64,000 nucleotides of DNA from Chelativorans salis. Lineage in GTDB: Bacteria; Pseudomonadota; Alphaproteobacteria; Rhizobiales; Rhizobiaceae. Location: NCBI RefSeq assembly GCF_025336525.1, contig NZ_JAOCZP010000001.1:248001-312000 (forward strand), written 5' to 3'. The notes under the pieces are model-generated. The model was not told where the DNA came from. It worked only from the letters and a program-made list of their open reading frames with translations, and made no database searches. This document shows positions 24,862-62,799 of the stretch, one piece after another. A program made the translations under genes and the position numbers. Within the stretch, counting starts at the first letter, position 1, and every line of letters begins with the position of its first letter.

Positions 24862-24878
24862 CAAACGGAGACCCCTCC

Positions 24879-25139: not shown

Positions 25140-25148
25140 GGCTAGTCC

Positions 25149-37046: not shown

Positions 37047-37064
37047 TGCGTGGATGAAACTCCC

Positions 37065-37883: not shown

Positions 37884-37886
37884 CGT

Positions 37887-38795: not shown

Positions 38796-38824
38796 GGCTG
38801 CTATCCCGGACGGCAATGCGCAGA

Positions 38825-38938: not shown

Positions 38939-38950
38939 AAACACCGCGCC

Positions 38951-40240: not shown

Positions 40241-40272
40241 AGCTGTTCCCCTTTTTTCGGATGGTTGTTTCT

Positions 40273-45289: not shown

Positions 45290-45410
45290 CAGATTTTTTG
45301 CCAATAAAAACCATAGCAATACCACATTTCAATGAAATGAATACCAATATGTCCGAGTATCACGGAATTAATACCAACGTATACAAAAATTTATACTACA
45401 AGGCTGGACG
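45290..45410 (+). other. AT-rich leader of the flippase/arabinose operon
   Basis: The stretch around the flippase start is strongly AT-rich, with repeated AATACCA elements (about 45315, 45341 and 45371) and a low-GC first 20 codons. No convincing Shine-Dalgarno site is present. It resembles the AT-rich islands upstream of other surface genes in this window (23100-23310, 54170-54265). Confidence 0.4.
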
Positions 45411-46338
45411 CATATTGCTTCCAGCCATGATCGTCGGTGCTGTCTTGGGCACCTTGCTTCTGGCTCCTTTGGACATCAGCGAGACCATACGCGCTGTCGC
45501 GGCTGTTGATCTTTGGACGCTGTTCCTTGTGCTTGTCTTGTCGCTCGTGAATTATGCCTTCCGCTTCTGGCGTTGGACCATGTTTTTGGGTGGGCGCAAC
45601 GCCCCGGTCTCCGTCGGTCGGCACCTTGCCATCTATGTTGCTGGCTTCGCGCTTACGGCCACACCCGGTAAAGCCGGCGAGACCATGCGCAGCCTTTACC
45701 TCCGCCCGTTCGGCATCCCGCCGAGCAAAAGCCTTGCCGCCTTCTATGCAGAACGCCTGCTCGACCTGATCGTCATCAGCGCGCTGGCGATGCTCCTCAT
45801 CACGCATTCGGACCCGGTCGTGCGGGCACTCGGGCTCACCGGCGCGGTAATCGCCATGGGCCTCCTCGCCATGCAGTATCCAAGGGTCACGGCGCTGGTC
45901 GAAGGCGCCGCGACCGCATGGCCGGCACGCGGAGCAAGGTTCGCCTCCGCCGCGGCCGGTTTCCTGCGCGATGTCCGCGCGATGATGACGCCACGCATCG
46001 CTCTTTGCGGAACGCTCCTAGGCCTTGCTGCCTGGGCGGGCGAGGGCCTGGGAACGTATCTCGTGGTTCGCTCCATGGGGTTCGATATCGACCTGTCGCT
46101 GGCAGTCGGAATCTACGCCACGGCGATGATCGCCGGCGTGCTGTCTTTTTTGCCGGGCGGTCTGGGCGGGACCGAAGTGGTGATGACGTCGCTGTTGATC
46201 TACGCCGGCGCCTCCGCGCCGGTCGCAGTCGCCGCCACCATCGTCGTTCGCCTTGCAACGCTCTGGTTCGCCGTGGTGCTCGGATTGGGTGCGTGGCTGG
46301 GCCTCGAGGCCGCCCGCGGCCTCAAACCGCGCGAATAG
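45337..46338 (+). CDS. LPG-synthase-TM / UPF0104 flippase-like membrane protein
   Basis: About 333 residues with eight or more membrane helices. The signature AFALTATPGKAGETMRSLYL and FYAERLLDLIVISALA, plus SFLPGGLGGTEVVMTSLL near the end, are typical of the lysylphosphatidylglycerol synthetase transmembrane domain (UPF0104). Members translocate or transfer lipid-linked groups; here it lies 30 nt ahead of the prenyl-phospho-sugar genes and could flip polyprenyl-phosphoryl-arabinose to the periplasm. That role is inferred from position. The start could be 45298 (TTG), 45337 or 45349. Confidence 0.75.
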   Translation: MNTNMSEYHGINTNVYKNLYYKAGRILLPAMIVGAVLGTLLLAPLDISETIRAVAAVDLWTLFLVLVLSLVNYAFRFWRWTMFLGGRNAPVSVGRHLAIYVAGFALTATPGKAGETMRSLYLRPFGIPPSKSLAAFYAERLLDLIVISALAMLLITHSDPVVRALGLTGAVIAMGLLAMQYPRVTALVEGAATAWPARGARFASAAAGFLRDVRAMMTPRIALCGTLLGLAAWAGEGLGTYLVVRSMGFDIDLSLAVGIYATAMIAGVLSFLPGGLGGTEVVMTSLLIYAGASAPVAVAATIVVRLATLWFAVVLGLGAWLGLEAARGLKPRE

Positions 46339-46368: not shown

Positions 46369-47844
46369 ATGACCGATCTCGACATACTCCCGAGTGCCGG
46401 ACCGATCGAGCCGCCGCCACCAAAGGCGCCGCCGGTTCCGCTGGTTGTGGATCTCGATGGAACGCTGGTCCGCACAAATCTGTTGCTGGAGTCCGTCATC
46501 GCGTTGGTGAAACAGTCGCTGCTGACGGTTTTCCTGCTGCCCCTTTGGCTGATGCGCGGCAAGGCCGTCCTGAAGGAAGAGGTCACCAGGCGCGTCAAGC
46601 TCGACCTGTCGGTGCTGCCGCTCAACGTGCAACTCCTCGATCATCTGAGACGGAAAAAGGCGCACGGCCACCGGCTGATTCTGGCGACAGGCACTCATGA
46701 AACGCTGGCGCGGCGAATTGCCGACCAGCTCGGTCTCTTCGATGACGTGCTTGCCACGAACGGCCGCCACAACCTTACGGGTTCGAACAAGCTCACGGTC
46801 TTGCGCCACCGGTTCGGGGCGAGTGGCTTCGACTACGCCGGAAACGCTATGGACGACCGTCCGATCTGGTGCGCGGCCCGCCAGGCAACCGTCGTCGACG
46901 CCCCCTCCCGCCTTGTCGGCTGGGCGAAGCGAAATGCCAATGTCACTCATGTTTTTCCGCGCCAAAAGCCGCCGCTCTGGCTTTATGTGCGCGCCCTTCG
47001 CCTCCACCAATGGCTCAAGAACATTCTCCTGTTTGCGCCGTTGGTCGCCGCGCTGCGGTTCACCGATGTCGGTGCGCTGACAGACCTGATGATCGGCTTC
47101 TTCGCCTTCGGCCTCTGCGCTTCCAGCGTCTATCTCGTCAACGATATAATCGACCTGGAGGACGACCGCCTCCATCCCAACAAGCGGAACCGCCCCTTTG
47201 CCTCGGGCGCGCTGCCGGTTTCCCACGGACTGATATTGGTCCCGCTTCTCTTGGCCGCCTCGGCGGCCCTGTGCCTCTTCCTGCCCTGGCAGTTCGCCGC
47301 GGTCCTTGCCCTCTACTACGCCGCGACGCTCGCATACACCTTCGGCCTCAAGCGTCTGGAGGCCATCGATATCGTAACGCTGGCACTGCTCTACACAACA
47401 CGCATATTTGCCGGTGCCGCCGCGGCCCAGCTGCCGCTCTCGGTATGGCTCCTCACCTTCTCCATCTTCCTGTTCTTGAGCCTTGCGATCGCAAAGCGGT
47501 ACGCTGAACTCATGTTGATGCATAAGAACGGCAAGCAGGCGAGCGCGGGACGCGGCTATCGGTTCGCAGACCTGCCGATATTGCGCAGCATGGGCGTGGG
47601 ATCGGGCTACGTCGCGGCCGTCGTCCTCGCGGTCTACTTGGACACGCCGCAGGTCGCCGCCGCCTACGCCCACCCGCACATCCTGTGGGTCTTCGTGCCC
47701 GTCCTCGTTCTGTGGCTGACGCGGGTGTGGATCAAGACCGGCCGCGCCGAGATGCATGACGATCCGCTGGTCTTCGCCGCGCGGGACCGTGTCAGCCTCG
47801 CCTTCGCCGTCCTGAGCGGCACCGTCATAGGGCTGGCGCTGTGA
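46369..47844 (+). CDS. HAD phosphatase-UbiA prenyltransferase fusion (decaprenyl-phosphate phosphoribosyltransferase-like)
   Basis: 491 residues. Residues 1-200 form a HAD hydrolase with the nucleophile motif VVDLDGTLV (D28, D30) and a GNAMDDRPIWCAAR-type acidic motif near 165. Residues 205-491 are a UbiA prenyltransferase with LHQWLKNILLFAPL, then NDIIDLEDDRLHP (N258-D266) and KRNRPFASGALPV, closely resembling mycobacterial DPPR synthase (Rv3806c). The UbiA part would attach phosphoribose from PRPP to polyprenyl phosphate; the HAD part may remove the 5-phosphate, a step done by a separate phosphatase in mycobacteria. Its stop overlaps the next GTG start. Confidence 0.85.
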   Translation: MTDLDILPSAGPIEPPPPKAPPVPLVVDLDGTLVRTNLLLESVIALVKQSLLTVFLLPLWLMRGKAVLKEEVTRRVKLDLSVLPLNVQLLDHLRRKKAHGHRLILATGTHETLARRIADQLGLFDDVLATNGRHNLTGSNKLTVLRHRFGASGFDYAGNAMDDRPIWCAARQATVVDAPSRLVGWAKRNANVTHVFPRQKPPLWLYVRALRLHQWLKNILLFAPLVAALRFTDVGALTDLMIGFFAFGLCASSVYLVNDIIDLEDDRLHPNKRNRPFASGALPVSHGLILVPLLLAASAALCLFLPWQFAAVLALYYAATLAYTFGLKRLEAIDIVTLALLYTTRIFAGAAAAQLPLSVWLLTFSIFLFLSLAIAKRYAELMLMHKNGKQASAGRGYRFADLPILRSMGVGSGYVAAVVLAVYLDTPQVAAAYAHPHILWVFVPVLVLWLTRVWIKTGRAEMHDDPLVFAARDRVSLAFAVLSGTVIGLAL

Positions 47845-49154
47845 CGAGCGTCGACGCAGCATACAGCTCCTGGGGGCGGCCACGGGTGGAAGCGGGCAAG
47901 CGTGTCGTCCGGCTCTGGTGGCGCGATCAGGGTTTCCCTGCCGACCGCCCTGCCCTGCCCTTCGGCAACGGGCGCAGCTACGGCGACAGTTGTCTTATCC
48001 GCGAGGGAGCCATTATAGACCTGCGCGGTCTCGACCGCTTCATCTCGTTCGACAACGACACCGGGCTCCTTCGCTGCGAGGCGGGCGTCCTTCTGTCGGA
48101 TATCCTCGCCCACTTTGTCCCGAAGGGTTGGTTCCTGCCGGTCACGCCGGGCACGCGGTTCGTCACGCTCGGCGGCGCGATCGCCAATGACGTGCACGGC
48201 AAGAACCACCATCGCGCCGGCAGCTTCGGCCATCATGTGCGGCGTCTCGAACTTCTGCGCTCCGACGGCACACGCATCGTCTGCTCTCCCCACGAAAGCG
48301 CCGACTGGTTCACCGCCACGATCGGCGGCTGCGGGCTGACCGGCATCATCCTGTGGGCCGAGATCGCCCTGCAACGGGTGCCGGGACCGGCAATGGAGGT
48401 CGAAACCCTGCGCTTTTCTGGCGTGGACGAGTTCCTCGAGTTAAGCCGCTCCTCGCACAACTCGCACGAATACACGGTGGCATGGATCGATGCCCTCAAC
48501 CCCGGAAGCGACGGCGCGCGCGGGCTCTTCTTCCGCAGCAATTTCGCAGCAGACCAGCGCCCCGTCGCAGCCCCCCGGCCAAAGCCGGGATTGCCCTTCA
48601 CTCCACCCGTCTCGCTGCTGCCGAAGGCGGCGGTCCGGCTCTTCAACGCGGCCCACCACCACTGGCCGCGCCGGTCCAGGCAATATGTCCACTACGAGCG
48701 GAGCTTCTATCCGCTCGACGCCGTGCCGAACTGGAACCGCCTGTTCGGCCGCAGGGGTTTTTTTCAGTATCAGTGTGTCGTTCCCTACAGCGCCGCCGAG
48801 GCAATCGGCGCGCTGATCGCGCGCGTCGCGCGTGCCGGCGAGGGATCGTTCCTTTCGGTGCTGAAGGTCTTCGGCGATCACAAACCGGCCGGCTGGCTGT
48901 CCTTCCCCCGACCCGGCCTGACGCTCGCACTCGATTTTCCCGATCGCGGCGAGCAGACGCTGAAGCTGCTCGACACGCTGGACGAGATCACCGTGGAAGC
49001 CGGCGGCGCGGTCTATCCCGCTAAGGATGCACGGATGAATGCGCAAACCTTCCGCCGCGGCTTTCCATCCTGGCAGCGACTCGAAGACTACCGCGATCCG
49101 GCCATCTGCTCGGATTTCTGGCGCCGCGTCGCCGTTCCGCAACCCGGTGAATGA
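47841..49154 (+). CDS. DprE1-like decaprenylphosphoryl-ribose 2'-oxidase (FAD)
   Basis: 437 residues of the VAO flavoprotein fold. PFGNGRSYGDS binds FAD; GGAIANDVHGKNHHRAGSFG matches the mycobacterial DprE1 active-site segment almost word for word; YPAKDARM holds the lysine equivalent to Mtb K418. The position of Mtb C387 (target of benzothiazinones) is alanine here (A363, in TLALDFPD). The enzyme should oxidise the 2-hydroxyl of polyprenyl-phosphoryl-ribose to the keto intermediate. GTG start overlaps the UbiA gene stop; the DprE2-like gene follows 4 nt after its stop. Confidence 0.88.
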   Translation: MTSVDAAYSSWGRPRVEAGKRVVRLWWRDQGFPADRPALPFGNGRSYGDSCLIREGAIIDLRGLDRFISFDNDTGLLRCEAGVLLSDILAHFVPKGWFLPVTPGTRFVTLGGAIANDVHGKNHHRAGSFGHHVRRLELLRSDGTRIVCSPHESADWFTATIGGCGLTGIILWAEIALQRVPGPAMEVETLRFSGVDEFLELSRSSHNSHEYTVAWIDALNPGSDGARGLFFRSNFAADQRPVAAPRPKPGLPFTPPVSLLPKAAVRLFNAAHHHWPRRSRQYVHYERSFYPLDAVPNWNRLFGRRGFFQYQCVVPYSAAEAIGALIARVARAGEGSFLSVLKVFGDHKPAGWLSFPRPGLTLALDFPDRGEQTLKLLDTLDEITVEAGGAVYPAKDARMNAQTFRRGFPSWQRLEDYRDPAICSDFWRRVAVPQPGE

Positions 49155-49158
49155 CGCG

Positions 49159-49896
49159 ATGCGCAAGGTCCTGATCATCGGTGCCACTTCAGCGATCGCT
49201 GCGGCCATCGCCCGCCTCTTCGCAAAGGACGGCGACCGCGTGTTCCTCATCGCCCGCAACGAGGAGCACCTGAAGGCCACCGCCGACGACATCGCCGTGC
49301 GGGGCGCCAGCGTTGCGGGTTATCGGAGCCTCGACGTCAACGCGCTCGACGAGCACAGGGCCGTTCTCGAGGAGGCGGAGGGGGCGCTGGGCGGCATCGA
49401 TCTCGCGCTCATCGCCCACGGCACCCTGCCGGTCCAGATCGACTGCGAGCGCTCGCCGGGCCTGACTGCCCAGGAATTGCAGACGAACGCGGTAAGCACC
49501 ATCGCCCTCCTTACCCGCCTCGCCGAGCGGATGGAAGAGAGGCGCAGCGGCAGGATCGCCGTCATCACGTCCGTTGCGGGCGACCGCGGCCGGCAGAGCA
49601 ACTATGTCTACGGTGCGGCAAAGGCCGCCGTCGATACCTTCCTCGAAGGCCTGCGCCAGCGGCTCCACAAATCCGGCGTCGGCGTGACCACCGTCAGACC
49701 GGGTTTTATCGACACTCCGATGACCGCCGGGTTCCGGAAGGGATTGCTGTGGGCCAAGCCCGAAACGGCCGCGAAACGCATTCATGCGGCGATCGGCAAG
49801 GGCACCGACGTCGTCTACGTGCCGTGGTTCTGGGGGTGGATCATGCTGGTGATACGCTTCCTGCCGCGCAGCATCTTCAAACGCATCAAGCTTTGA
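49159..49896 (+). CDS. DprE2-like decaprenylphosphoryl-2-keto-arabinose reductase (SDR)
   Basis: 245 residues. The NAD-binding loop GATSAIAAAIARLF, a serine in ITSVAGDRG and the catalytic YVYGAAKAAVD (Tyr-x3-Lys) are present. The C-terminus MLVIRFLPRSIFKRIKL matches mycobacterial DprE2 (VLRHIPRSIFRKL), a better family marker than the SDR core. It would reduce the keto intermediate to polyprenyl-phosphoryl-D-arabinose, the donor for arabinosyl transfer. It is the last gene of the flippase/UbiA/DprE1/DprE2 operon and convergent with the GT-C/ASST fusion gene. Confidence 0.85.
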   Translation: MRKVLIIGATSAIAAAIARLFAKDGDRVFLIARNEEHLKATADDIAVRGASVAGYRSLDVNALDEHRAVLEEAEGALGGIDLALIAHGTLPVQIDCERSPGLTAQELQTNAVSTIALLTRLAERMEERRSGRIAVITSVAGDRGRQSNYVYGAAKAAVDTFLEGLRQRLHKSGVGVTTVRPGFIDTPMTAGFRKGLLWAKPETAAKRIHAAIGKGTDVVYVPWFWGWIMLVIRFLPRSIFKRIKL

Positions 49897-49917: not shown

Positions 49918-52422
49918 TTATCGCCGTCGCGGCGCGGCCGGCTGCGCGAGCTTATGGCGGAATCCCGGCTCGAAATAGTCCACCCCGATCCTTTGGGCAC
50001 CGTTGATGATGGGGATAAGGTGCTGCCGGTCCCCGCGTCGGATCGGATTGACATAGCTCCACACCACGTCCCCTTCCCGCGTCACCTCCAGGAGCCGCCC
50101 GCCGTCGGATTCGGTGATCAGCGTGTTTCCATTCGGCAGCCGCTCCGCGTTCGAGCGCAAGAAACTATAGAGGGGATGGTCGGACGTGCCGCCGAAGCTC
50201 CATTCGATGTTGGAGGTGCGCGGATCGATCTCGATGACCCGCGAACTGTTGCCGCCATCCAGGCCGCCCAGATTGTCGAACATCAGTATGTTGCCGTTCG
50301 GCAGTATGCTCGGGTCGTGCTGCCGCAGCCATGCTCCTGTCATCGCCCACTTTATCTCGCCGGTCTCCATGGAAACGACGGCGAGCAGCGACTGCTCCCT
50401 GATTGAGACAAGAAGGTCGCCTTCTTCACCGAACGGGAAATTCCGCGCCGCCTCCGCGTCGATATACTTGACATTGTTCGGATGCAGCGGATCGCCGAGG
50501 GTGGAATAGGGCAGGAATCGGAGGAGCCCGCCGTATCGCGAATTCACCAGCGCTTCCGTCAGCGATATCCTCCTCAGCTCCTCTCCCTCCGGCGAGAGTT
50601 CGACAAGGAAATCCTCCAGGTAGGGACGATCGAACTGCCTCGCCCCGCGCTGCGGTTCCTGGTTGAACTGATGGACGAGCGTGTAGATGCGGCCGTCCGG
50701 CGCAATCGACATCTCGTGATGCACATGATCGAGATAACTCCAGATAACGCGGGAATTGCGGTCCATCTTGACCATCCCGTAGCCCCACGGCGTATCGGCG
50801 GACGAAATGTAGATCGCCAGCAGATCCCCGTTCGGGAAGACCTTGGCGCGATCCATGTAGATGACGGAGCCGGGCTGCGGCTCGGCGACCGCCGCCCCCA
50901 CTTCCCACACCCTCTCATATGGCAGCCGCCACTCGTGCACGACCCGCCCATCCATGGCGACCAGGCGGGCAACCTGATCGTCGCCCGACGTGAACAGCGT
51001 GTAACCGGGAAAAGCGCGGGCGGGATTGTGGATGGTGACGCCGCGCTCGTCCGTGCGGGCACGCTCATAGAGGTTGGTCAGGATGGGATTGCTGAGGATC
51101 CGTTGCTGGAGCCGTAACGCGTCCCAGGCCCGGTAGGCATCGCTGAAGAACTGGTGCGGAAAGACCCGCGCCTGCATCACCATCGCGCCTCCCACGAAGG
51201 CAAGAAACATCAGCATGAGCACGAAAGCCGTCGTGCCGGCTCTTTCCGCAACGCCTTGCGCCTCCCCTCTGGGAGCGCTGGTGGCGACCGCCCGTGGTCC
51301 GGAAAGCTGACTAACGGCGGAACCGCGATGGCTGGCATTCCAGGCGGTAATCGCCTGCACCGCCGCCAGCCAAATGATTGGCATGATCTCGACAACCACG
51401 CGCTGCTCGGGCAAGCGGCCGAAATATACGGCCAAAGCCAAAAACGGCAGACCGAACCAGATCAACGTCCGCCCCAGAACGGGAGACAGGTAGCGGCGCA
51501 ACAGCAGCACCGGCAGATAGAGGCCGGCACCGAATCGCGCGAAATAGGTCACCAGGTAGAGTGGGCTGGCAAACAGCGCGAGATTGTGCACGAGGTGGTT
51601 TTCGTATTCCGATCCCGCAACATTGGCGTGAGGGTTTTCAATGTTCGGGATGAGCCATACCGCCGAACCGTAGACAGCGGCAAAGACGAGAACTTGAGCC
51701 GCCAGCGTCTTCAAGAGCAGCTCACGGCTGATACGGTCGTAGCAGACGGCAAGGAACGCCGGGATCATGCATACCGTCGTCTCGCGGTTCAGCGTGGCGA
51801 CGGCGAACAGCCCGAGATAGGCGGCGAAACGGTGCATATCGGGGCGCCGCTCGAAGCGTGCGAGCAGAATCACCAGCGCGAGCGTGAAGACGGCGGCGGG
51901 CAGGTCGTACACATAGCGGAAGAGCCTGACTGTTCTCCACTCGCCCAGTTCCAGAAGCCCGCCTTCCTGCTGAAACGTTGACGAGAACCTCAGGTCCGGC
52001 ACGATCAGATGCATCGCAACTGGAATGACGACGGTTATCGCCAGGAGCCGGCGCACCGGTGGCGAGACATCTGGACAGAAAAAGTCCAAACCGCGCAGCG
52101 CGACGACGATCAGCAGCATCCACACGCCGACCTCGATGGCGGCAAAGACGAGATCGGCATCGAGCCATGGAACGCCCTGACTGATCCCCGCCACGAGGAT
52201 GGGCAACAGCGTCCGATACTGAAACGGCGCCGCGGCGTTGAAATCGGCCATGCGCCACGGGCTGGCGAGCCACCAGGGCAACGTCGCGACGTAGTGAAAT
52301 GCCGTCAAGAGAACGGCGATCCACAAGAGCGCAAGGATCCAAAGCGTGCGCGAGGCGTACCCGCGATCAATGCCCGGCACAGTCCCCCGCACCCCTCCCG
52401 CCGATGATGGGACAGCTTCCAC
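49918..52422 (-). CDS. Fusion of a polytopic GT-C-like membrane domain and an arylsulfotransferase-like domain
   Basis: 834 residues in one uninterrupted frame. Residues 30-370 have about ten membrane helices with FQYRTLLPILV in the first large loop, TLNRETTVCMIPAF and RVVVEIMPIIW, a pattern seen in predicted GT-C-type glycosyltransferases. A further helix (about 415-435) precedes an ASST-like propeller domain (470-834): VKMDRNSRVIWSY, HHEMSIAPDGRIYTLVH, QHDPSILPNGNILMFDN and NGNTLITESDGGRLLEV. The second half is a full-length paralogue of the ASST-like protein at 23428, including its membrane anchor. The combination of sugar transfer and sulfate transfer in one protein is unusual; neither activity is proven. 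Confidence 0.78.
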   Translation of the reverse strand: MEAVPSSAGGVRGTVPGIDRGYASRTLWILALLWIAVLLTAFHYVATLPWWLASPWRMADFNAAAPFQYRTLLPILVAGISQGVPWLDADLVFAAIEVGVWMLLIVVALRGLDFFCPDVSPPVRRLLAITVVIPVAMHLIVPDLRFSSTFQQEGGLLELGEWRTVRLFRYVYDLPAAVFTLALVILLARFERRPDMHRFAAYLGLFAVATLNRETTVCMIPAFLAVCYDRISRELLLKTLAAQVLVFAAVYGSAVWLIPNIENPHANVAGSEYENHLVHNLALFASPLYLVTYFARFGAGLYLPVLLLRRYLSPVLGRTLIWFGLPFLALAVYFGRLPEQRVVVEIMPIIWLAAVQAITAWNASHRGSAVSQLSGPRAVATSAPRGEAQGVAERAGTTAFVLMLMFLAFVGGAMVMQARVFPHQFFSDAYRAWDALRLQQRILSNPILTNLYERARTDERGVTIHNPARAFPGYTLFTSGDDQVARLVAMDGRVVHEWRLPYERVWEVGAAVAEPQPGSVIYMDRAKVFPNGDLLAIYISSADTPWGYGMVKMDRNSRVIWSYLDHVHHEMSIAPDGRIYTLVHQFNQEPQRGARQFDRPYLEDFLVELSPEGEELRRISLTEALVNSRYGGLLRFLPYSTLGDPLHPNNVKYIDAEAARNFPFGEEGDLLVSIREQSLLAVVSMETGEIKWAMTGAWLRQHDPSILPNGNILMFDNLGGLDGGNSSRVIEIDPRTSNIEWSFGGTSDHPLYSFLRSNAERLPNGNTLITESDGGRLLEVTREGDVVWSYVNPIRRGDRQHLIPIINGAQRIGVDYFEPGFRHKLAQPAAPRRR

Positions 52423-52901
52423 GAGCGCCTCCGCAACCGTCTTGCCTCGCCCCCCCGATCACCTTGGCCGGCGCCGGGCGCTACAATTGACTATGGTTCA
52501 GTGGCCGGCCGCTCGAACGAGCGGCCAGCGGAACAACAACGGCAGGTGGTGGAGAGGGTTCCATCATATGGAATTAACGGGTGCAACATGAGCGTATACG
52601 CCAGGCACGTGCGATTTCAATGCGTTAGCATACAGTCGCGGGAAATGTCTTTGCCTCTTCGCGCCCCCTCTGGCCTGCCGACCATCTCCCCACGAGGGGG
52701 GATCGGCCGACACGGGCCGCTTTCGCCAAACCGCCGACGTTCTAGAACGGCGAGGCATAAGCGAAGGCTGGTCTACCCCCCTTTGGGGGAGATGGCCGGC
52801 AGGCCAGAGGGAGGCGCGAAGGGGCGCAAAATCCGCAACTGTAGCGTTAGCTGAAAGCCAGGTGTTTGAAATCGGCAGCGAGGGGTATAACAGAAGCGCT
52901 G
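52423..52901. other. Gene-free stretch carrying a large palindromic repeat
   Basis: 479 nt between the ASST fusion gene and the DUF4185 gene. About a third is the inverted-repeat element listed separately. The rest, including 52500-52645 and 52830-52901, contains no frame that I recognise. Confidence 0.5.
52655..52824. repeat. Large RIME-like palindromic intergenic element
   Basis: The left arm at 52658-52691 (TTCGCGCCCCCTCTGGCCTG..CCATCTCCCC) is matched by the reverse complement of 52786-52820 with only a few mismatches. Inside are nested hairpins: ATCTCCCC..GGGGGGAT on the left, ACCCCCC..GGGGGAGAT on the right, CTTTCGC..GCGAAGG, and a central TTCTAGAA palindrome (about 52740-52747). It resembles the RIME or REP elements dispersed in Rhizobium genomes. 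It carries no gene. Confidence 0.65.
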
Positions 52902-54071
52902 CTACCCGTCTTCGGACGGTGCCTCGGGAACGGCCGCGATTGCCGGTGCCGGCCACTCCAGCGTCGTGCGCATAAGGAAGACGTTGTACGGCGTCCACTG
53001 CGACATCGTGTAGTAGAGTTCGGTGTCGATGTCGCTGCCAGGGACGATGTAGGGCGCATAGAGACCCGGATAATCCTGCGCACCGACAACGACCTGCGCC
53101 TCGCCCCAGGGGCCGGTCATGTCGCGCGCAAGCCGCAGGACGATGGCTTTGCGCTCCGGGTCGAAATACATCATGACCCAGCTTTGATGCGCCTTGCTCC
53201 AGGCGACGGATAGTTCGCCGACCGGCGCCGGCACGATCAGGCTGGCGGCGGCGGGATCGGCGACCCACTCGGTGCCGGTCCAGTATTCGTAAGCGTCCCG
53301 CGCCAGTATCTGCTCGGCCGCGACACGGCGCAGCCTGACGCCGCCGAACCGCCCCTCCGGAATCCCGAACGTGTAAAGCGTGTCCTCGTCACGGACGAAG
53401 GCGACCTGCTCAAACCCGATCGCCTGGTTCTGGACGGCCTCAGGCGGGACCTCCCAGGTGTGCCCGTCGTCGTCGGAAAAGGCTATACCGGAATGGCGGA
53501 CGTCCCACCGCCCCGGCTCACCCCACCGCTTGACCGACATGTAGTGAAGATACATGCGGCTGCCGATGGAAATGCCATTGGTCGGGATCACGGTCTTCTC
53601 GATGCCGCCGATCTTGCGCGAATGGAGCAGTTCCTTCGCGGCGCCGTTCGCGCCGGTGATCATGGTCTCTATCGGCAGGCCGTTGCGCGGATCGGGGTCG
53701 GCGATGCGGGCAATCGTGTTGCTGCGCCAATTCTTCAGGCCGAATACGCTCCTCTGGCCGAACGTATCGCCAAAGACCATGTAAAGCGCGTCGTTGTGCA
53801 GGAACATATGCCCAAGGTCGGTGCCATGGACGTCCCACCGGCGCGCGGTATCGTTCACTGCGTCGCGGCCGGTCACCTGGCTTACGACCTCGCTTCCGGC
53901 AATATGCACCATAAGCGGCGATACGGCAGCTTGATCACCCGTCTTCACGTCCGGCTGCAATGAAGCATCCTGCATTTCCATGACGGGTATTTCGGTCGGG
54001 GGACCGGCAGAGGCAACGGAGGAAAGTGCAAAAAACGCACTGCAAAGAAGGATCGCTGACCGATTGCGCAT
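52902..54071 (-). CDS. Secreted DUF4185 protein, candidate GH183 endo-D-arabinanase
   Basis: 389 residues with a signal peptide (about 1-22, MRNRSAILLCSAFFALSSVASAG). DUF4185 hallmarks are visible: RRWDVHGTDLGHMFLHNDAL and MVFGDTFGQ near the start, TNGISIGSRMYLHYMSVK, WVMMYFDPERKAIVLR, and GLYAPYIVPGS plus YYTMSQWTPYNVFLMRT at the end. The family has been shown to include endo-acting D-arabinofuranases (CAZy GH183) that cut mycobacterial arabinan. With a D-arabinose donor pathway 3-9 kb away, a role in trimming a D-arabinan in the periplasm or outside is plausible. ATG 54071 follows GGGAG; catalytic residues were not assigned. Confidence 0.8.
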   Translation of the reverse strand: MRNRSAILLCSAFFALSSVASAGPPTEIPVMEMQDASLQPDVKTGDQAAVSPLMVHIAGSEVVSQVTGRDAVNDTARRWDVHGTDLGHMFLHNDALYMVFGDTFGQRSVFGLKNWRSNTIARIADPDPRNGLPIETMITGANGAAKELLHSRKIGGIEKTVIPTNGISIGSRMYLHYMSVKRWGEPGRWDVRHSGIAFSDDDGHTWEVPPEAVQNQAIGFEQVAFVRDEDTLYTFGIPEGRFGGVRLRRVAAEQILARDAYEYWTGTEWVADPAAASLIVPAPVGELSVAWSKAHQSWVMMYFDPERKAIVLRLARDMTGPWGEAQVVVGAQDYPGLYAPYIVPGSDIDTELYYTMSQWTPYNVFLMRTTLEWPAPAIAAVPEAPSEDG

Positions 54072-54674
54072 CCGTGACTCCCGACGTGAGCCGAGAGCCC
54101 CGCCGGCTGCGGACGCAAGTCCGCCGCGCAACCACGAATCGGAGGCCCCCCGCCCGGTTAAGTTGATCAGCGTCCATATAGTGGATTTTCACCTCACATA
54201 CAATTAATTTCCGTAATAAATTTATCGTTATAAAAATTTTTCTCTTTTTTCTTAATGACTTATGACAACGTCTTCTCACGAGGTTCGGCAGATCCTTGGA
54301 GCTCGTACGGGGTCAACAGAGGGTAGATTCATCCAGACAACCTTCGCTAACTCTTTGAATCGGCGAAACATTCAAACTTTTCTCGCGGGAAAATTCGCCC
54401 CCCTGCCCAAGCCGCTCCTATCATAGCCCCATCGCTCTCGCGGGAACCGGATGCGCACCGGGTGTTCGGGAGAGCGGCGGCAGCCTCCCCCTTCAGGAAC
54501 GGTACCTGGAGGCATGTGAGGGCCCGCGAACAGGCCGGAGTCCGGCAGGCCCATCGCAGATGGGCGATACCGGATGCGGAAAAGCCGCGGGGTTCGGCAA
54601 AGGCGCTTCACTGCGTGTGTCCGTCCGGAGCCAGAAAGAGCCCTTAGACCGGTCGAATGTCGGGACAGCGGCCG

Positions 54675-54732
54675 GCGGGGCGCGTTGCCCGCGCCTTAAA
54701 ATGAATAGAGTGGCACGGACAACGCGCCCCGC
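54675..54732. repeat. 13-bp perfect inverted repeat
   Basis: GCGGGGCGCGTTG (54675-54687) and CAACGCGCCCCGC (54720-54732) are perfect reverse complements around a 32-nt AT-richer loop. The function is unknown; it could be part of a mobile or REP-type element. Confidence 0.6.
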
Positions 54733-54792
54733 TTCCCAACCAATCAAAGGCCAGACGGTGCAGCCGGGCGTGGCAGCGATGGCGTACGTCCG

Positions 54793-54839
54793 TCTCACTC
54801 TGAGCTTGTCGATGGGCGGGCTTGTCGAAGGGGCGAAGG
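54793..54839. repeat. REP-like motif (TGAGCTTGTCGA family)
   Basis: CTCACTCTGAGCTTGTCGA is followed after nine bases by TTGTCGAAGGGGCGAAGG. This is the wording of a dispersed repeat common in many proteobacterial genomes (TGAGCTTGTCGAAGG). Only one copy is in the window, so the repeat status rests on recall. Confidence 0.5.
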
Positions 54840-54878
54840 CAAAATCGCTGGCGAACAGGCAAAGCCAGCCGCCCATAG

Positions 54879-54895
54879 CCCTCCGCAGCGGAGGG
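54879..54895 (-). terminator. Hairpin after the DUF2723 gene
   Basis: CCCTCCG-CAG-CGGAGGG is a perfect stem located about 10 nt beyond the stop of the minus-strand DUF2723 gene. No T-tract follows, so intrinsic termination is uncertain. Confidence 0.35.
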
Positions 54896-54904
54896 AGAAC
54901 TACG

Positions 54905-56572
54905 CTATTGCCCCACAGTCGGCGCCGACACCTTGAACGTTGCACCTCCCGGCGGCGGAGCCGAGCCGCTATGGCAAACGAAGGCGTAGGCCGGCCATCG
55001 CCTTTCCTGCAGGGGCACCTCGCGGGTCGTGCACCGCAGTTCGGGTCTTTCGTGCTCGATCCACTGCACGAATTGGAAGCCGTCGGTCGGCACGACGACC
55101 CCGCCGACCTCGGCCCGGTGTTTGATTTCCGGCACTGCGCGCCACCACACCCGATAGGCGGGAGATCGTGGGAGCTCGCCCGACAGCTCGTAATAGAGCG
55201 CCGCCATGCGCAGCCCGTAGGGCATGACGAACAAGGGATGTTCGACTGGCGCATCGGCGACCATCTGCCTGATCGACGGCTTCAGACCGTCGAAAAGGGG
55301 TTCGCGATCCTGAAGCAGGTTGGCGACGTGCTCCCCCCTGACGATCCCGATGACCAACAGCAACGTAGCCACCGCGTCGCGAAAAATGGGACGGCGCGCA
55401 AGCCACCATGCCGACGTCGCCACGACCGCGACCAGAAGCGGCCCCAGAACCGGGAGATGGAAGGCCCGGATGTCATAGGCGCCGTACCACAGCATGAAAG
55501 GCGTGAAGCAAAGCGCCGCTCCGTAAACGAGCGCCAGGCCCCGCCAGCCCGCATCGCGACGCTTGTAGCCGACGACGAAAAGGGCGATGCCGATGACGAT
55601 AAGCGGCGCCGAGACCCACGGATGGGCGGAGCGGAGCGTGTCGACCAGGACTTCCAGCGTCCGCGTCGAATCCAGCCCGGACCCGTAGAGATCTGCGAAA
55701 TAGGTCCCGCGGATATACTCGACCAGCTCCATGGGCGGCGGCGGCAGCGGCATATATTCCGAATAGGCCGTGTGCGGACTGTAGGCGGTGTAGGCGAGAT
55801 AGAGGTACTGGCTGGCCCCGAGCAGGATGAAGAACGCAACCGCGGCTATCGTCCGGGGACGCATGATCAGGCGGAAATGCAGGGCCGTCACCCCAATGAA
55901 GAGTGGCAACAACATGATCATCATCAGATGGTTGCCGAAAGAGGCCGCGTAGACGGCGCATGCGGCGATGAAGAAGCCCACCCTCCGGCTTTCCACGAAA
56001 AGAAGGAGCAGAAAAACAGTCGTCAGGATGAAGGCGAGCGCGAGCGGGTAGACTTCCGCTTCCGTCGCCTGGATGGCCATCAGGCTGGATGTGCCGAGCA
56101 GGAGCGCGGCGGCGATGGCGGTGCGGATATGACGCGTCAAACGATAGACGATCAGGACGGCGACGGCATTGGCAAATGCTGCCGGGACGACGGCAAGCGC
56201 GAATGTCATCGTCCACCACGGCGGCAGCGGCAGCCCGAGCGCGCGTACCCCTGCCCCAAGCAGCAGCACGGACGGATATCCCGGCCCGTGCAGCATGATC
56301 GGCGTGTGGCCGAGGATCTGGATTTTCGTCGAATCGCCGGCGTTCAACTCCCCGCCCAAGCCGGGAAACATGCACAGGCCGTAATAGACGAGCGACGCCA
56401 GGAAAATGGCCACCGCGGCCGCCGATGCGCTCCGCCAGCCATCCCGGTCCGCGGATTGCTGACCACCTGTCAAGAGCCGGTGAAGCAGCCCTGGCGCAGC
56501 TTGAGGCAAATCCGCGGTTGCCGTACCCCCCTGTCGATCCATTACGTTACCGGTTTCCTTCGCCAGCCGCAT
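54905..56572 (-). CDS. GT-C-type membrane glycosyltransferase, DUF2723-like
   Basis: 555 residues. After a 45-residue cytoplasmic part there are about eleven membrane helices to residue 430, then a periplasmic C-terminal domain (about 435-555). The first outer loop contains GGELNAGDSTKIQILGHTP and MLHGPGYPSVLLLG, the DUF2723 counterpart of the catalytic acidic loop of GT-C enzymes, and EAEVYPLALAF follows. Such proteins transfer sugars from polyprenyl-phosphate donors. With a polyprenyl-phosphoryl-arabinose pathway nearby, arabinosyl transfer is a fair hypothesis. The ATG at 56572 shares ATGA with the stop of the AsmA-like gene. Confidence 0.8.
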   Translation of the reverse strand: MRLAKETGNVMDRQGGTATADLPQAAPGLLHRLLTGGQQSADRDGWRSASAAAVAIFLASLVYYGLCMFPGLGGELNAGDSTKIQILGHTPIMLHGPGYPSVLLLGAGVRALGLPLPPWWTMTFALAVVPAAFANAVAVLIVYRLTRHIRTAIAAALLLGTSSLMAIQATEAEVYPLALAFILTTVFLLLLFVESRRVGFFIAACAVYAASFGNHLMMIMLLPLFIGVTALHFRLIMRPRTIAAVAFFILLGASQYLYLAYTAYSPHTAYSEYMPLPPPPMELVEYIRGTYFADLYGSGLDSTRTLEVLVDTLRSAHPWVSAPLIVIGIALFVVGYKRRDAGWRGLALVYGAALCFTPFMLWYGAYDIRAFHLPVLGPLLVAVVATSAWWLARRPIFRDAVATLLLVIGIVRGEHVANLLQDREPLFDGLKPSIRQMVADAPVEHPLFVMPYGLRMAALYYELSGELPRSPAYRVWWRAVPEIKHRAEVGGVVVPTDGFQFVQWIEHERPELRCTTREVPLQERRWPAYAFVCHSGSAPPPGGATFKVSAPTVGQ

Positions 56573-58422
56573 CAATTGGCACCTGCATTTTCCGTCGGAA
56601 TGATATCGTCCGCCGAGATCGATGCGGAACGGGCGCCGATGCGCGGGATACCTGGAGCGATCATCGGCTCGCGCATCGTGCCGCCCACACCGAAGGGAAG
56701 TTCGACAAGCGGTATTTGCAGAGGCTCCGGCGCATCGGCGGCATGGAGGGCGGCGACCCCCTTTGCCTCAACCTCGCCGTCGACCAGCTTTCCGCGGCCC
56801 GACAGGCTGATCTCGAAACGATCGCCCTCGAAGCGGACCCGCGGCACATGGACGACGCCGTCCCGCACGTCGGCCGAGGCAATGAGGGTCGAAAACGATG
56901 TCCGTCCGGCAGCGGGTATGAAGGGCTTGCCGGTGCCAAGGTTCACTGTGCCGGAGGCCAGCCGCTGCAGCGTCGAGACGATGTCGGCACCATCGAGGCT
57001 ACCGTCGCGGACGACGGCGACGCCCCAGCCGTCAAGCGAGGCGATAACGGCGCCGAGCGTCTTCCCCCGACCGGTAAGCTCGGTCGCCGCCGTGACGATG
57101 CCATCGGGCGGATCGTCCTGGCCGATGGGCAGGCTGATGGTTTCCGGCCAAAGCGCCCGACCGATATCGCTCACCGATATGCTATCGACACGGCTTGCCA
57201 GACGTACGGATGCCCCCCCTTCCACCGGTGTGATAAGCAGTGTGCCCTGCACCAGTCCGCCAGCCAGTTCCGTCTCCTCCAACGTCACGCTCATCCGCCC
57301 AGCGCGGTTGCGAAATTTTACGGTAGGATACGAGACGCTGAACCGTCCGAAGTTGCTCGCCGGAGCCCCGGCGGTAAGGTCGATGTCGATGCTGCGCAGT
57401 TGGTGGGGCACGGCGGGGAGCCTCAGCAATTGCGCCAGTTTCTCCGGAAGGAGTGCGTTCAGGTAGGAGCCGAAATCCAGTTCCTCGAATTCGAGCGATC
57501 CGGCGAGCCGCGGTCGCTCGCCTCCCCATCCGAAGACGAGACTGCCAGATGCCGACGTTCCGGGCAGCTCGAAAGTCGCATCCTCGAGCGCCACCGTATC
57601 GCCTTCGGCCGCCTTGAACATGCCGGTCATTTCGAGCGGACCGAAAGCCTGGTCCGGCTCAAGCAGCGAGATCGCTCGCGTCTGCCTGCGCGGGCCCGGC
57701 CAAATATCCACGAAATCAAGCGCGCCCGCCGACAGTGTCGCCGGCCTTGCGGCGATCGTCAGATAGCCTTGGCTTCCCGTCGTGAGGATGCTTTGCGGAT
57801 CATCGAGCCCCGCATTGACGTCTACCCGTCGATGGCGCCACTCCAACGAGCCGGCAAGCCTGACGAGCGGCTCGGCGGCTCCCCGCGTAAACTTCATGTT
57901 GACGCCGGTGATCTCCTCTGCTCGCCCGGTAGCCTCATCTTCCAACCGGACGACACCGTTCTGCAGGATGACTTCGCCAATGCCATTATCCCCGGCATTG
58001 GCGAACAAGGGATGCCGCGCATAGCCTGCCAATCTGGACAACAGCTTTCGCGGCCCTTCGCTGCTCGCGTTCCAGTTCACGCGGATCCGCGCGTTACCCA
58101 ATGTCAGGCTGCGAGGCTCGATCCGCCCGCTGAGCAGCGGGAGAACCCGAAGCGATGCGCTAAGAGATGTGATCCTGAAGCGCGGCGGCTCGTCAGGGCG
58201 ACTGTTTCCCCTTACCTCCACGTCCTCCATGGTGACGGTGGGAAAAGGCAGAACAGCGACCGTCGTGTTGCCGCGAATATGGACCTTTTCACCGGTCGAG
58301 GCTTGGATAAAGCTGGCAATCCGCTCTTCGGCAAAACGTGCCGAAGCATGCGGAAGTATGGCTACGAGTGCTGCCGCTGTGAAAGCGGCTATTGCCAGCA
58401 CTATGAAGATCGACGTTCTCAT
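56572..58422 (-). CDS. AsmA-family envelope protein
   Basis: 616 residues. An N-terminal membrane helix (about 5-25) is followed by SARFAEERIASFIQASTGEKVHIRG and VAVLPFPTVTMEDVEVRG, the AsmA N-terminal pattern, and a long beta-rich periplasmic part with DLTAGAPASNFGRFSV near the middle. AsmA-like proteins form bridge-like structures between inner and outer membrane thought to move phospholipids or help outer-membrane assembly. The stop overlaps the downstream GT-C gene, so envelope polymer export and sugar transfer may be linked. ATG 58422 gives the clean membrane anchor. Confidence 0.82.
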   Translation of the reverse strand: MRTSIFIVLAIAAFTAAALVAILPHASARFAEERIASFIQASTGEKVHIRGNTTVAVLPFPTVTMEDVEVRGNSRPDEPPRFRITSLSASLRVLPLLSGRIEPRSLTLGNARIRVNWNASSEGPRKLLSRLAGYARHPLFANAGDNGIGEVILQNGVVRLEDEATGRAEEITGVNMKFTRGAAEPLVRLAGSLEWRHRRVDVNAGLDDPQSILTTGSQGYLTIAARPATLSAGALDFVDIWPGPRRQTRAISLLEPDQAFGPLEMTGMFKAAEGDTVALEDATFELPGTSASGSLVFGWGGERPRLAGSLEFEELDFGSYLNALLPEKLAQLLRLPAVPHQLRSIDIDLTAGAPASNFGRFSVSYPTVKFRNRAGRMSVTLEETELAGGLVQGTLLITPVEGGASVRLASRVDSISVSDIGRALWPETISLPIGQDDPPDGIVTAATELTGRGKTLGAVIASLDGWGVAVVRDGSLDGADIVSTLQRLASGTVNLGTGKPFIPAAGRTSFSTLIASADVRDGVVHVPRVRFEGDRFEISLSGRGKLVDGEVEAKGVAALHAADAPEPLQIPLVELPFGVGGTMREPMIAPGIPRIGARSASISADDIIPTENAGAN

Positions 58423-58736
58423 GGCAGCAATTCTGTTGCCCCGCCACATGACAATCTAACGCGACGAAGAAAGCAAAAATAGGGTCGGCCGGCATGATGT
58501 TGAAAAACCTAGCCAATGCGGCGAGAGGACAGAACAGCCGATGCCGCGAGAAGCCGGCCTCCCGTAGCCTCTCGGACGGCCCGTCATGGCCATATGGCGC
58601 CGCAGCGAGGACACGGTGGAAGTGGCCGCGTGTGCCGCACAGCGGCTGCATCGGGAATTTTCTGACAACGCGATCGATCGTCTCGCTCAGGCCGCAGTTC
58701 GGCAGATAATGACGGCAAGGAAAACGGATACAATCC
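58423..58736. other. Intergenic region between AsmA-like and S41 genes
   Basis: About 314 nt between divergent genes. I see no recognisable coding region, RNA or repeat here; it should hold both promoters. Confidence 0.4.
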
Positions 58737-60937: not shown

Positions 60938-61297
60938 TCAGAAAGTATTATGCCGGTCGACGTGCTGGGGATCGTTCTCGAGCAAGATCGGCGTGCCATG
61001 CGGCGTCGCGTGGGCCGCGCGCTGCCAGGCCGCGGCCAAGGCATCGACATCGCTTAGCGCAGTGATACTTTTGGCCGCGAGGAGTTTTTCGAGGGCGGCG
61101 AGCCAGCAGGTGTAGTAATCGCTGCCGTCTTCAGCTCCGCTATTCTCCAATTCCTTTGACAGGCTTTCAGCCCACTCGCTCCAGGAAAACACACCTTTCT
61201 GGTGGAGTGCGAGCGTCATCGCAAAAGCTTGTGCCTGCCATGGTTCGGAGAATACGCGATCGTCGTCGGCCTGTGGAAGCAGATCACGCGGGTTCAA
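60938..61297 (-). CDS. Nitrile hydratase accessory protein (P14K-like)
   Basis: 119 residues resembling the N-terminal half of the beta subunit, as expected for the small activator that loads cobalt: FSEPWQAQAFAMTLALHQKGVFSWSEWAESLS and DYYTCWLAALEKLL. It overlaps the beta-subunit gene by 14 nt. In cobalt-type nitrile hydratases this protein escorts the alpha subunit for metal insertion and cysteine oxidation. Confidence 0.88.
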   Translation of the reverse strand: MNPRDLLPQADDDRVFSEPWQAQAFAMTLALHQKGVFSWSEWAESLSKELENSGAEDGSDYYTCWLAALEKLLAAKSITALSDVDALAAAWQRAAHATPHGTPILLENDPQHVDRHNTF

Positions 61298-61943
61298 GAT
61301 AGCTCTCCCACGCGTCGACAGAGACGGTCAGTGCCGGATCACCCGTCTCACCCCATATCTCACGCCCGTCGAAGACCACGGTGTAGACCCATTGCGGGTT
61401 TTCCCCTTTCCCGTGGGCGTTTGTATCCGGGAAGACGAACCCACCCCGTACAGCTTCGATAATGCCGAGCTTGCCGCGCGCGTAGCGCGGCAGCCGCGTA
61501 TGGTCCTGGGTGTGGAAATTCCTCGTTCGCACACGATCACCGGCCTTGAAGCGCGCCGGGGCCGGAACAGGCCTGTCGCACGGCCCGCCTTTCGCCAGAG
61601 CCGCTGCAACGTCAGCTGCTTTCAGCGTCCGTTTTGGCCTGGTGCCTTCGACCTGTGCCCGCCCCTCTGCCAACTCATCCGCGGTGACGAAGCCGTGGCG
61701 CTGAAGCAGGACCTCCAGCGCCTTGATCCAGATCTCGTAGTAGCTGGAGGCGTAATAGTCCGCCGGGTGCAGGCATTCCCGCGCATGGCGGCTTTCATCG
61801 ATGGTCCAGGCGCCCATTGCACCGGCGGCAAGTGTCACGCCGAGCGCCCGCTTCTCCCACTCGGCGTGGAAAACGGGTTCGTCCTTTTCGGGCGCGACCG
61901 CTCCGAAGCCCATCTGTCCGCCGAGATCCTGGGGCCCGTTCAT
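61284..61943 (-). CDS. nthB: Nitrile hydratase beta subunit
   Basis: 219 residues. [19 protein letters not shown] starts nearly all beta subunits; [21 protein letters not shown] and [14 protein letters not shown] follow. The C-terminal SH3-like barrel contains [23 protein letters not shown] (in part) and [14 protein letters not shown]. It pairs with the alpha subunit to hydrate nitriles to amides. Its ATG overlaps the alpha-subunit stop (4 nt). Confidence 0.95.
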
Positions 61944-62551
61944 GGCTGGTGTGACTCCAGCGCCAAGCCGGTGCCAATCATGGAATCGCGCGTGACCAGT
62001 GCCGCCAACTCCTCCTCGCTCAGGCCTTCCGTGCCTTTCGGCCGCAGCGGCACGACGAGATAGCGCAGTTCCGCGGTCGAATCCCAGACCCGGATATTCG
62101 TCTCAGCCGGCAAATGCACGCCGAGTTCCTCAAGCACGCCGCGCGGATCCATGACGGCTCGGCTGCGATAGGCCGGCGCCTTGTACCAGACTGGCGGTAG
62201 GCCCAATACCGACCAGGGATAGCAGGAGCAGAGCGTGCAGACGACGAGATTGTGCGTATCCGGGGTATTGAAAACGGCCTGCATGTGCTCGCCCTGCCGG
62301 CCGGCAAAACCCAGCGAGGCGATCGCCGCGGTGGCGTCTTGCTTCAACCAGTCGGAATACTCCGGATCGCACCATGCCCTTGCAACGACCTTCGCGCCGT
62401 TCCGCGGGCCGACCTTGGTTTCGTATGTGTCGACTATGGCGTCGATCGCAGCGGGTTCGACCAGCCCCTTCTGGGTCAGGATCGTCTCCAGGGCGCGCAC
62501 TCGCGCGGCCATGGGGTCGAGGTCGTTGTCATGGTCATGGGCATGAGACAT
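61940..62551 (-). CDS. nthA: Nitrile hydratase alpha subunit, cobalt type
   Basis: 203 residues. The metal site is [11 protein letters not shown], with C105, C108 and C110; CTLC rather than CSLC indicates a cobalt enzyme. [19 protein letters not shown] and [13 protein letters not shown] are family blocks. A His/Asp-rich N-terminus ([10 protein letters not shown]) may help metal capture. The enzyme converts R-CN to the amide in the cytoplasm. ATG 62551 is chosen by family length; no strong ribosome-binding site is seen. No amidase or aldoxime dehydratase gene is present in the window. Confidence 0.95.
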
Positions 62552-62799
62552 GGACGAAAGGATATGCGTCGAATCCGAGAAGGACAAGGCCAGCAACGCG
62601 ATGGTGTGACGCGACAGTGGGTGACGATGACGCTCGACAAATTCCGGAAGCGGGGCCTTATCTCGGTCAGCCACCAGCGGATCGTCATAGAGCAATACGA
62701 CATGCTGCACGGACTGACGGAGGGTGTCCGGGATGGGGCCCCTTGCCACCGTGAAACGCCTCTATCACGGCTCCGCCGACACCTGCCGCCCGTCCCCGT

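Follow-up and report, generated by a model that had tools for sequence, protein, structure and literature searches.

D-arabinan is considered characteristic of mycobacteria and related bacteria, and a gene for a predicted endo-D-arabinanase beside genes for a D-arabinose donor in an alphaproteobacterium raises the question of which glycan such a locus serves. We analyzed a 64,000-nucleotide stretch of the Chelativorans salis genome (hereafter the window; the genome has 5.66 Mb in 19 contigs), in which a DUF4185 protein of the glycoside hydrolase family 183 (GH183) type, two membrane proteins with the layout of GT-C glycosyltransferases, one fused to an ASST domain and the other of DUF2723 type, and an AsmA-family protein lie beside a donor operon. 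A sequence-only reading of this DNA had attributed the grouping to the synthesis, transfer, modification and trimming of one polymer, and profile searches recovered every gene that it had named. Our results suggest that the locus probably makes and remodels the organism's own D-arabinofuranose (D-Araf)-containing envelope glycan, and the best reading is that a known three-component pentofuranose pathway has been extended by a self-trimming endo-D-arabinanase and, probably, by sulfation.

The DUF4185 gene, on the minus strand at 52902-54131, encodes a GH183-type enzyme that is predicted to be a secreted endo-D-arabinanase. The protein matches PF13810 with 339.1 bits (cut-off 39.5) over positions 2-309 of the 309 of the profile, so that the domain is full length, and an ATG at 54071 within the open reading frame (ORF), the likely start, gives a signal-peptide-like N-terminus as judged by eye and by hydrophobicity. 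Residues 81-392 match the Microbacterium enzyme EndoMA1 (8HHV) with an E value of 2.9e-71, and a hand count along the alignment places D105, D122, R261 and E306 at Asp33, Asp51, Arg198 and Glu243 of EndoMA1, in which Asp33 is the nucleophile and Asp51 the acid/base (PMC10509167, section 8). The equivalents of these four residues are invariant in all 19 aligned DUF4185 sequences and that of Trp138 is retained in 18 of them, while Pro141 is not conserved in 4 of the proteobacterial members, nor Leu292 in 4 other sequences. Together with the distance of 3 kb to the HAD-UbiA/DprE1/DprE2 donor operon, these results bear out the earlier placement of the protein in the GH183 family near arabinose-donor genes. 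Just upstream of the gene, a stretch of 31-32% GC (54150-54300) within a region of about 62% GC is possibly its own promoter region, and DUF4185 may therefore be transcribed separately from the DUF2723-type gene; promoter and terminator scans gave no more matches than in shuffled sequence. Between the DUF4185 and GT-C/ASST genes lies an inverted repeat (52666-52811; 36-base arms, 89% complementary, 74 bases apart) that looks like an intergenic palindromic repeat element.

The donor operon is on the plus strand, and the AsmA, DUF2723-type, DUF4185 and GT-C/ASST genes converge on it from the minus strand. At 45298-46338 it encodes a flippase-like membrane protein (PF03706, 145 bits; TIGR00374), a candidate flippase for a lipid-linked arabinose donor that belongs to the LPG_synthase_TM/TIGR00374 family and not to MATE. 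A homologue of 46% identity has the same position in the donor operon of Nitrococcus (L058, 7000-7986), and a GtrA protein replaces it in the donor operons of Roseobacter H9 and Tateyamaria. The HAD-UbiA fusion at 46369-47844 (PF01040, PF12710) is a candidate polyprenyl-phosphate phosphoribosyl synthase and 5-phosphatase, and its score with NF006088 (625 bits, cut-off 351) points to a phosphoribosyl synthase that carries a phosphatase domain. The surveys reported here are samples, namely 385 genomes of the class Alphaproteobacteria, 249 of the order, 198 of the family of Roseobacter H9 and 72,556 plasmids. The DprE1-like oxidase at 47841-49154 scores 349 bits with NF053785, below the equivalog cut-off of 500, which was reached by none of the 385 class genomes. 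The DprE2-like reductase at 49159-49896, in an ORF opening at 49039, is over the cut-off of NF005489 (318 bits) and scores 184 bits with NF053786, below the cut-off of 250.

Does the grouping recur? In two other Chelativorans species, DUF4185 and the donor genes are present with 80-93% identity. An AbiEi/AbiEii toxin-antitoxin pair (L009:7597-9127) separates the DUF2723-type gene from DUF4185 in C. alearense, and in C. xinjiangense these two genes are on different contigs, with the DUF2723-type gene 271 bases from a contig end. Roseobacter H9 has homologues of DUF2723 (59% identity to the window), DUF4185 (54%), AsmA (29%), ASST (29%) and the donor enzymes (38-44%) within 13 kb. A Tateyamaria plasmid carries, in this order, OpgG, a 531-residue membrane protein, DprE2, DprE1, GtrA and HAD-UbiA and, divergent from these donor genes, AsmA, DUF2723, DUF4185, a small protein, a sulfotransferase, ASST and GT61, followed by other polysaccharide genes. 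Roseobacter H9 keeps this order from its 534-residue membrane protein to ASST, with OpgG beyond the 534-residue protein (L096), and the cassette of another Rhodobacterales genome, G767, is like these two as far as it was read, apart from the donor genes considered below. Much of the set also occurs in a Nitrococcus metagenome-assembled genome (MAG), in which a 10 kb contig (L010:3-8620) carries DUF4185 (60%) together with a GT2 and ABC transporter parts, and the donor operon encodes HAD-UbiA, DprE1 and DprE2 with 56%, 65% and 60% identity to the window. Beside the Tateyamaria cassette (L094; NZ_CP019313.1 16137-57552) are genes for GT61, DegT, GT2, an FdtA/QdtA cupin and an ABC transporter, and this larger polysaccharide gene set may make the acceptor glycan.

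Because the DUF2723 and DUF4185 proteins of Roseobacter H9 are 59% and 54% identical to those of the window versus 38-44% for the donor enzymes, the comparison indicates that the module became linked to different donor operons or remained linked to them. In a DprE1 tree of 48 rows with a midpoint root, a group of 13 rows (100/100) contained Chelativorans and Nitrococcus; Roseobacter H9 and Tateyamaria lay outside it, among the remaining 35. A single clade of the six cassette-linked DprE1 rows was rejected at a cost of 168 log units (p-AU 6e-41), with the group defined by gene content and the test run after the tree had been seen. The 7 proteobacterial DUF4185 sequences formed one clade (100/100) in a 19-row tree made from one similarity search and two added loci, with weak partial alphaproteobacterial matches left out. 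It could be argued that the genes are neighbours by accident, since the two halves of the locus lie on opposite strands and converge, and DUF4185 and the DUF2723-type gene are about 770 bases apart, with the AT-rich stretch between them. Such an accident is extremely improbable given that two distant donor lineages are involved, that the arrangement recurs in three Chelativorans genomes and in three genomes or plasmids of Rhodobacterales, and that the module was found in none of 40 other donor neighbourhoods. In this sampled survey the module and the donor genes are thus not associated at random, and the earlier view of the grouping as one locus is thereby supported.

These 40 neighbourhoods were drawn from among the 53 other DprE1 genomes of the class sample and covered up to about 9 kb a side, some ending at contig ends (shortest 3.2 kb); none of the 40 held a homologue of DUF4185, the DUF2723-type protein, the GT-C half, ASST, the sulfotransferase or OpgG (tblastn, 1e-5), and a single weak AsmA match (24%) was seen. 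DUF4185 is itself rare. PF13810 matched in 6 of the 385 class genomes at E <= 1e-3 and reached the cut-off in 3, the window's own genome having the one full-length protein (340 bits) and the other two having partial ones (54 and 47 bits). In the order sample there was a match in 2 of the 249 genomes, over the cut-off in the window's own, and no DUF4185 match in 9 other genomes of the window's family. DprE1 was found at E <= 1e-40 in 54 of the 385 class genomes. The DUF2723-type gene occurred in one class genome (the window's own), in 2 of the 198 genomes of the H9 family (H9 and G767; the query was the H9 protein) and in one of the 72,556 plasmids (Tateyamaria omphalii pDOK1-4-1). The two other Chelativorans species bring the genomes or records with a strong DUF2723-type match to 6. 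All 6 also carry DUF4185, at most 3.5 kb away in 5 of them, and one weak match (29%, E 3.5e-7, 147 residues) is in a Chloroflexia genome that also carries DUF4185.

These surveys bear on an alternative in which no polymer is made: a plain three-component system would attach D-Araf to a polysaccharide or protein as single side residues, and DUF4185 would have short D-Araf motifs as its target or a shifted specificity. The donor enzymes, the flippase and one GT-C protein are the gene set of PMC11127046, DprE1 without full-length DUF4185 is common (54 against 1 of the 385 class genomes), and a subset of the assayed GH183 enzymes also cleaves short pilin oligosaccharides (PMC10115798). On the other side, the GH183 enzymes assayed to date act endo on arabinan (PMC10115798, PMC10509167), two GT-C-type genes and a conserved GH183 exceed the needs of side-residue addition, and the 40 other donor neighbourhoods are free of GH183. 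We consider this alternative unlikely. Because the assayed GH183 enzymes are endo-enzymes, it is plausible that the glycan is a polymer, with a short D-Araf oligosaccharide as the alternative.

Is the DUF4185 protein directed at a glycan of its own host or at foreign arabinan? GH172 is the exo partner in known arabinan degradation. DprE1 scored above 300 bits in 4/4 proteobacterial versus 1/10 actinobacterial or chloroflexotal DUF4185 genomes (Actinomycetospora), and adding the window's genome, G767 and the Tateyamaria plasmid gave DprE1 in 6/6 proteobacterial DUF4185 genomes and in the one plasmid record. GH172 was present in all ten actinobacterial or chloroflexotal DUF4185 genomes, in one of them (G634) as a fragment with a stop, and in none of the six proteobacterial ones (window's own included) or the plasmid record. 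The genomes compared are non-independent samples, GH172 has other substrates too, and six alphaproteobacterial genomes with weak partial DUF4185 matches (two over the cut-off) were left out of both counts. Since the proteobacterial DUF4185 genomes have DprE1 and no GH172, and the others have GH172 and mostly no DprE1, the contrast favours a role of DUF4185 on a self-glycan.

The competing possibility is that DUF4185 degrades foreign D-arabinan, as food or in an attack on actinobacteria, and lies beside the donor operon by chance. DUF4185 proteins do degrade D-arabinan in Microbacterium and Dysgonomonas loci (PMC10509167, PMC10115798), and the window contains, at about 37-41.4 kb, an ABC importer with an SBP_bac_8 binding protein, two permease parts and an ATPase. 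Within the same stretch (36303-42356), an Asp/Glu/hydantoin racemase gene and a GntR regulator lie beside the importer, and the former suggests another substrate; moreover, GH172 is missing from all six proteobacterial DUF4185 genomes and the plasmid record, and the linkage of DUF4185 recurs with distant donor lineages. We regard a role on foreign arabinan as quite improbable. The D-arabinan utilization locus of Microbacterium arabinogalactanolyticum has a GH183, as does the window, together with GH172 and GH116 (PMC10509167). In contrast, the window's genome has no GH172 match, and its SBP_bac_8 importer may be unrelated to the one in Microbacterium. In PMC10115798, the account of DUF4185 phylogeny mentions actinobacteria, Bacteroides, Myxococcus, phage and a predatory bacterium, and the main text never uses the word 'proteobacteria'.

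The window offers two candidate transferases. The first, on the minus strand at 49918-52422, is a membrane domain of GT-C layout fused to a membrane-anchored ASST domain; a simple hydropathy scan gave eight hydrophobic segments, then a ninth, followed by an Arylsulfotran_2 domain (PF14269, 102.8 bits, cut-off 27). In Nitrococcus, on the contig that carries the donor operon (L058), a GT-C protein (50% identical to fusion residues 23-394) and an ASST (48% to residues 394-827) are encoded by separate neighbouring genes on opposite strands. The simplest account of the window gene is thus that two cassette genes have fused, an argument for joint action of GT-C and ASST. The second, on the minus strand at 54905-56575, is a candidate membrane glycosyltransferase of DUF2723/TMEM260 type, with a score of 21.2 bits for PF11028 (now TMEM260-like) that is slightly under the cut-off of 24.2; the Roseobacter H9 homologue scores 43.7 bits and the Tateyamaria homologue is annotated DUF2723. 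An NAGDS motif, invariant in four aligned homologues, precedes HGPGYP and is probably in the first periplasmic loop. When the predicted model of this protein (pLDDT 47.8, pTM 0.45, and thus poor) was compared with the PDB, 10 of the first 11 matches were titled oligosaccharyltransferase complexes, DPY19 or Pmt4 and the other was a secretory translocon. EmbA, ALG9, AftA and ArnT followed later amid unrelated transporters; over all matches the best E value was 1.8e-3. No likeness of the 534-residue Rhodobacterales membrane protein to either window GT-C was found (hhalign probabilities of 0.2 and 0.1%, a weak test with 2-4 sequences a side).

The AsmA-family gene on the minus strand at 56572-58449 (PF05170, 46 bits, cut-off 29.8; alternative start 58422) completes this half of the locus, and its homologue adjoins the DUF2723-type gene in Roseobacter H9, Tateyamaria and G767. 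The end of the locus had earlier been set at 58422, which is a downstream ATG of the AsmA ORF at 56572-58449.

We found that a second set of genes in the window (21376-26992), lying about 20 kb away from the donor operon, is part of the cassette in Rhodobacterales; the sequence-only reading had not tied it to the locus. It comprises an MdoG/OpgG-type periplasmic glucan protein (21376-22974, minus strand; PF04349, 610 bits) and, on the plus strand, a stand-alone ASST (23428-24861; PF14269, 94.3 bits), a small GPGAGL membrane protein (24879-25139; 40% to the small Tateyamaria protein), a two-segment membrane protein whose homologues adjoin the sulfotransferase elsewhere (25149-25868), and a Sulfotransfer_3 sulfotransferase of the 3'-phosphoadenosine 5'-phosphosulfate (PAPS) type (25865-26992; PF13469, 88.5 bits on the longer ORF 25673-26992). 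The last is 40% identical over 283 residues to the sulfotransferase of the Tateyamaria cassette, and the cassettes of both Tateyamaria and Roseobacter H9 include OpgG, small-protein, sulfotransferase and ASST homologues. A gene for a GH25 lysozyme-family protein (20308-21345) directly adjoins the OpgG gene.

The stand-alone ASST shares 45% identity with the ASST domain of the fusion, and both copies are over the cut-offs of PF14269 and PF05935. Against the PDB, phmmer with this domain of the fusion returned no significant match (best E 0.36), and a 7-sequence profile matched the solved sulfotransferase 9KF6 (1.1e-10). Invariant in all seven sequences are H176, H177, H255, R283 and H310 (ASST-fragment numbering); the invariant features include two adjacent histidines, an H-x-N motif, an arginine and a QHD motif. 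Judged by motif and not by alignment to EcAST, they resemble the EcAST set of His252, His356, Asn358, Arg374 and the catalytic His436, and some ASSTs are able to sulfate sugars (PMC13426309).

A sulfotransferase match was found in 10 of 289 sampled class genomes, the window's own included. In seven of the nine other neighbourhoods, the two-segment protein was present in 4 (L151, L152, L154, L155), an ASST-type match in 5 and the small GPGAGL protein in 5 (L152, L153 and L155 among them); no DUF4185, OpgG, DUF2723-type or UbiA/DprE1 match was found in these seven, and there was one weak match (24%) to a short-chain dehydrogenase/reductase (SDR). A general tie of the sulfation set to DUF4185 or to donor operons is ruled out by these seven neighbourhoods. 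Because they carry sulfation genes without DUF4185 or OpgG, sulfation forms a separate module, one that becomes attached to the present locus in some lineages.

The position of OpgG suggests another acceptor, a periplasmic glucan, in which case D-Araf and sulfate would be added to an OpgG-type oligoglucan and DUF4185 would do the trimming. An OpgG/MdoG gene adjoins the cassettes of Roseobacter H9 and Tateyamaria, and in the window it lies next to the sulfation set. OpgG is, however, common in Proteobacteria, the OpgG gene of the window is about 22 kb from the donor operon, and no OpgG match was found in the 7.7 kb covered on one side of the G767 cassette; we take a glucan acceptor to be improbable.

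How does the locus compare with systems already described? Three-component extracytoplasmic pentofuranose systems are known from Citrobacter youngae O1/O2, with GT136 (Kelly et al. 2024, PMC11127046). Like them, the window encodes a predicted phosphoribosyl synthase with a phosphatase domain, a candidate flippase, a candidate GT-C protein and DprE1/E2 homologues, the last being found in such systems when the sugar is Araf; unlike them, it has a candidate flippase of another family and adds a second GT-C-type gene, GH183, AsmA, ASST/sulfotransferase and OpgG. The window locus possibly overlaps with the candidate systems of that paper. Mycobacterial arabinan synthesis (DPPR synthase, DprE1/DprE2, Emb/Aft) shares with the window the predicted donor pathway and a GH183 of the arabinan maker's own (PMC10115798), whereas the GT-C-type proteins of the window match none of the mycobacterial arabinosyltransferase Pfam families, the envelope is Gram-negative, the genes are clustered and sulfation genes are present. 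Proteobacterial D-arabinose donor genes also serve Nod-factor arabinosylation in Azorhizobium (noeCHOP; PMC2443382) and pilin arabinosylation in P. aeruginosa (PMC11127046, PMC10115798), in which the acceptors are the Nod factor and pilin, and the passages on them in these three papers mention no GH183 or sulfation genes. None of the literature matches listed describes a locus that unites a donor operon and GH183 with a second GT-C, AsmA and sulfation genes. We therefore take the locus as a variant of a known pathway, in which the core corresponds to the three-component pathway in its Araf form and the addition of GH183, a second GT-C, AsmA and sulfation genes is, as far as these sources go, new.

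From this gene content we propose the following steps; each of them, their order, the acceptor, the sulfation and the chain length are inferred. At the inner membrane, HAD-UbiA, DprE1 and DprE2 would produce polyprenyl-phosphate D-arabinofuranose, to be flipped by the LPG_synthase_TM protein (the GtrA protein in Rhodobacterales). Transfer of D-Araf outside the cytoplasm would fall to the two GT-C-type proteins, the DUF2723-type one and the N-terminal part of the fusion, one of them perhaps starting the chain and the other extending it, and the secreted GH183 enzyme would cut or size the chain of presumed D-arabinan, as has been proposed for mycobacterial GH183 on the producer's own wall. The ASST domain, tethered to GT-C in Chelativorans, would add sulfate outside the cytoplasm, using a sulfate donor charged by the cytoplasmic sulfotransferase, and AsmA would help the product towards the outer membrane.

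Several observations weigh against such a self-glycan pathway. Because DprE1 and DprE2 score under the NCBI equivalog cut-offs, the donor sugar may be another pentofuranose. The assignment to GT-C comes from membrane layout and from weak fold matches (E >= 1.8e-3) of the poor DUF2723-type model; the predicted model of the GT-C half of the fusion had a pLDDT of 37 and was not used. Neither protein has a Pfam match to the mycobacterial arabinosyltransferases (Emb/Aft) at E values up to 0.1, and the Rhodobacterales membrane protein has no detectable likeness to the fused GT-C of the window. The G767 cassette (L095:7700-10000) is without DprE1 and the N-terminal part of DprE2, although a DprE1 elsewhere in that genome may supply the donor step. 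In the Nitrococcus MAG, DUF4185 is on a different contig from the donor operon and the DUF2723-type gene was not found. Among the six left-out genomes with weak DUF4185 matches, DprE1 exceeds 150 bits in G091 only (158) and G123 has none. Furthermore, the SBP_bac_8 importer is 4-8 kb from the donor operon and its binding-protein family is also that of the Microbacterium arabinan-use locus (PMC10509167), and other alphaproteobacteria carry sulfation genes in the absence of DUF4185.

With these points considered, we still think it likely that the locus makes and remodels a D-Araf-containing glycan of its own host, and the presence of the gene set in a few unrelated Gram-negatives suggests an undescribed surface glycan. 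A bolder version is that certain Alphaproteobacteria and Nitrococcus make a sulfated D-arabinan as a Gram-negative counterpart of mycobacterial arabinans, with new GT-C arabinosyltransferases (one fused to a sulfotransferase), sizing by a self-encoded GH183, and a cassette that moves between lineages on plasmids and attaches to different donor operons. We put this forward tentatively and hold it to be rather doubtful. If one Gram-negative locus indeed combines donor synthesis, new candidate GT-C proteins and an endo-D-arabinanase acting on its host's glycan, arabinan and its remodelling would have arisen or spread outside mycobacteria and their kin, environmental bacteria would offer model organisms for arabinosyltransferases and DprE1-type enzymes, DUF4185 would have an own-glycan role in Proteobacteria, and the ASST proteins would be candidate periplasmic glycan sulfotransferases. 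Chelativorans, Roseobacter H9 and Tateyamaria are represented by sequenced named strains that are not known to be pathogens. Elsewhere in the window, genes for the alpha and beta subunits of a nitrile hydratase (61284-62749) are unrelated to the locus discussed here.

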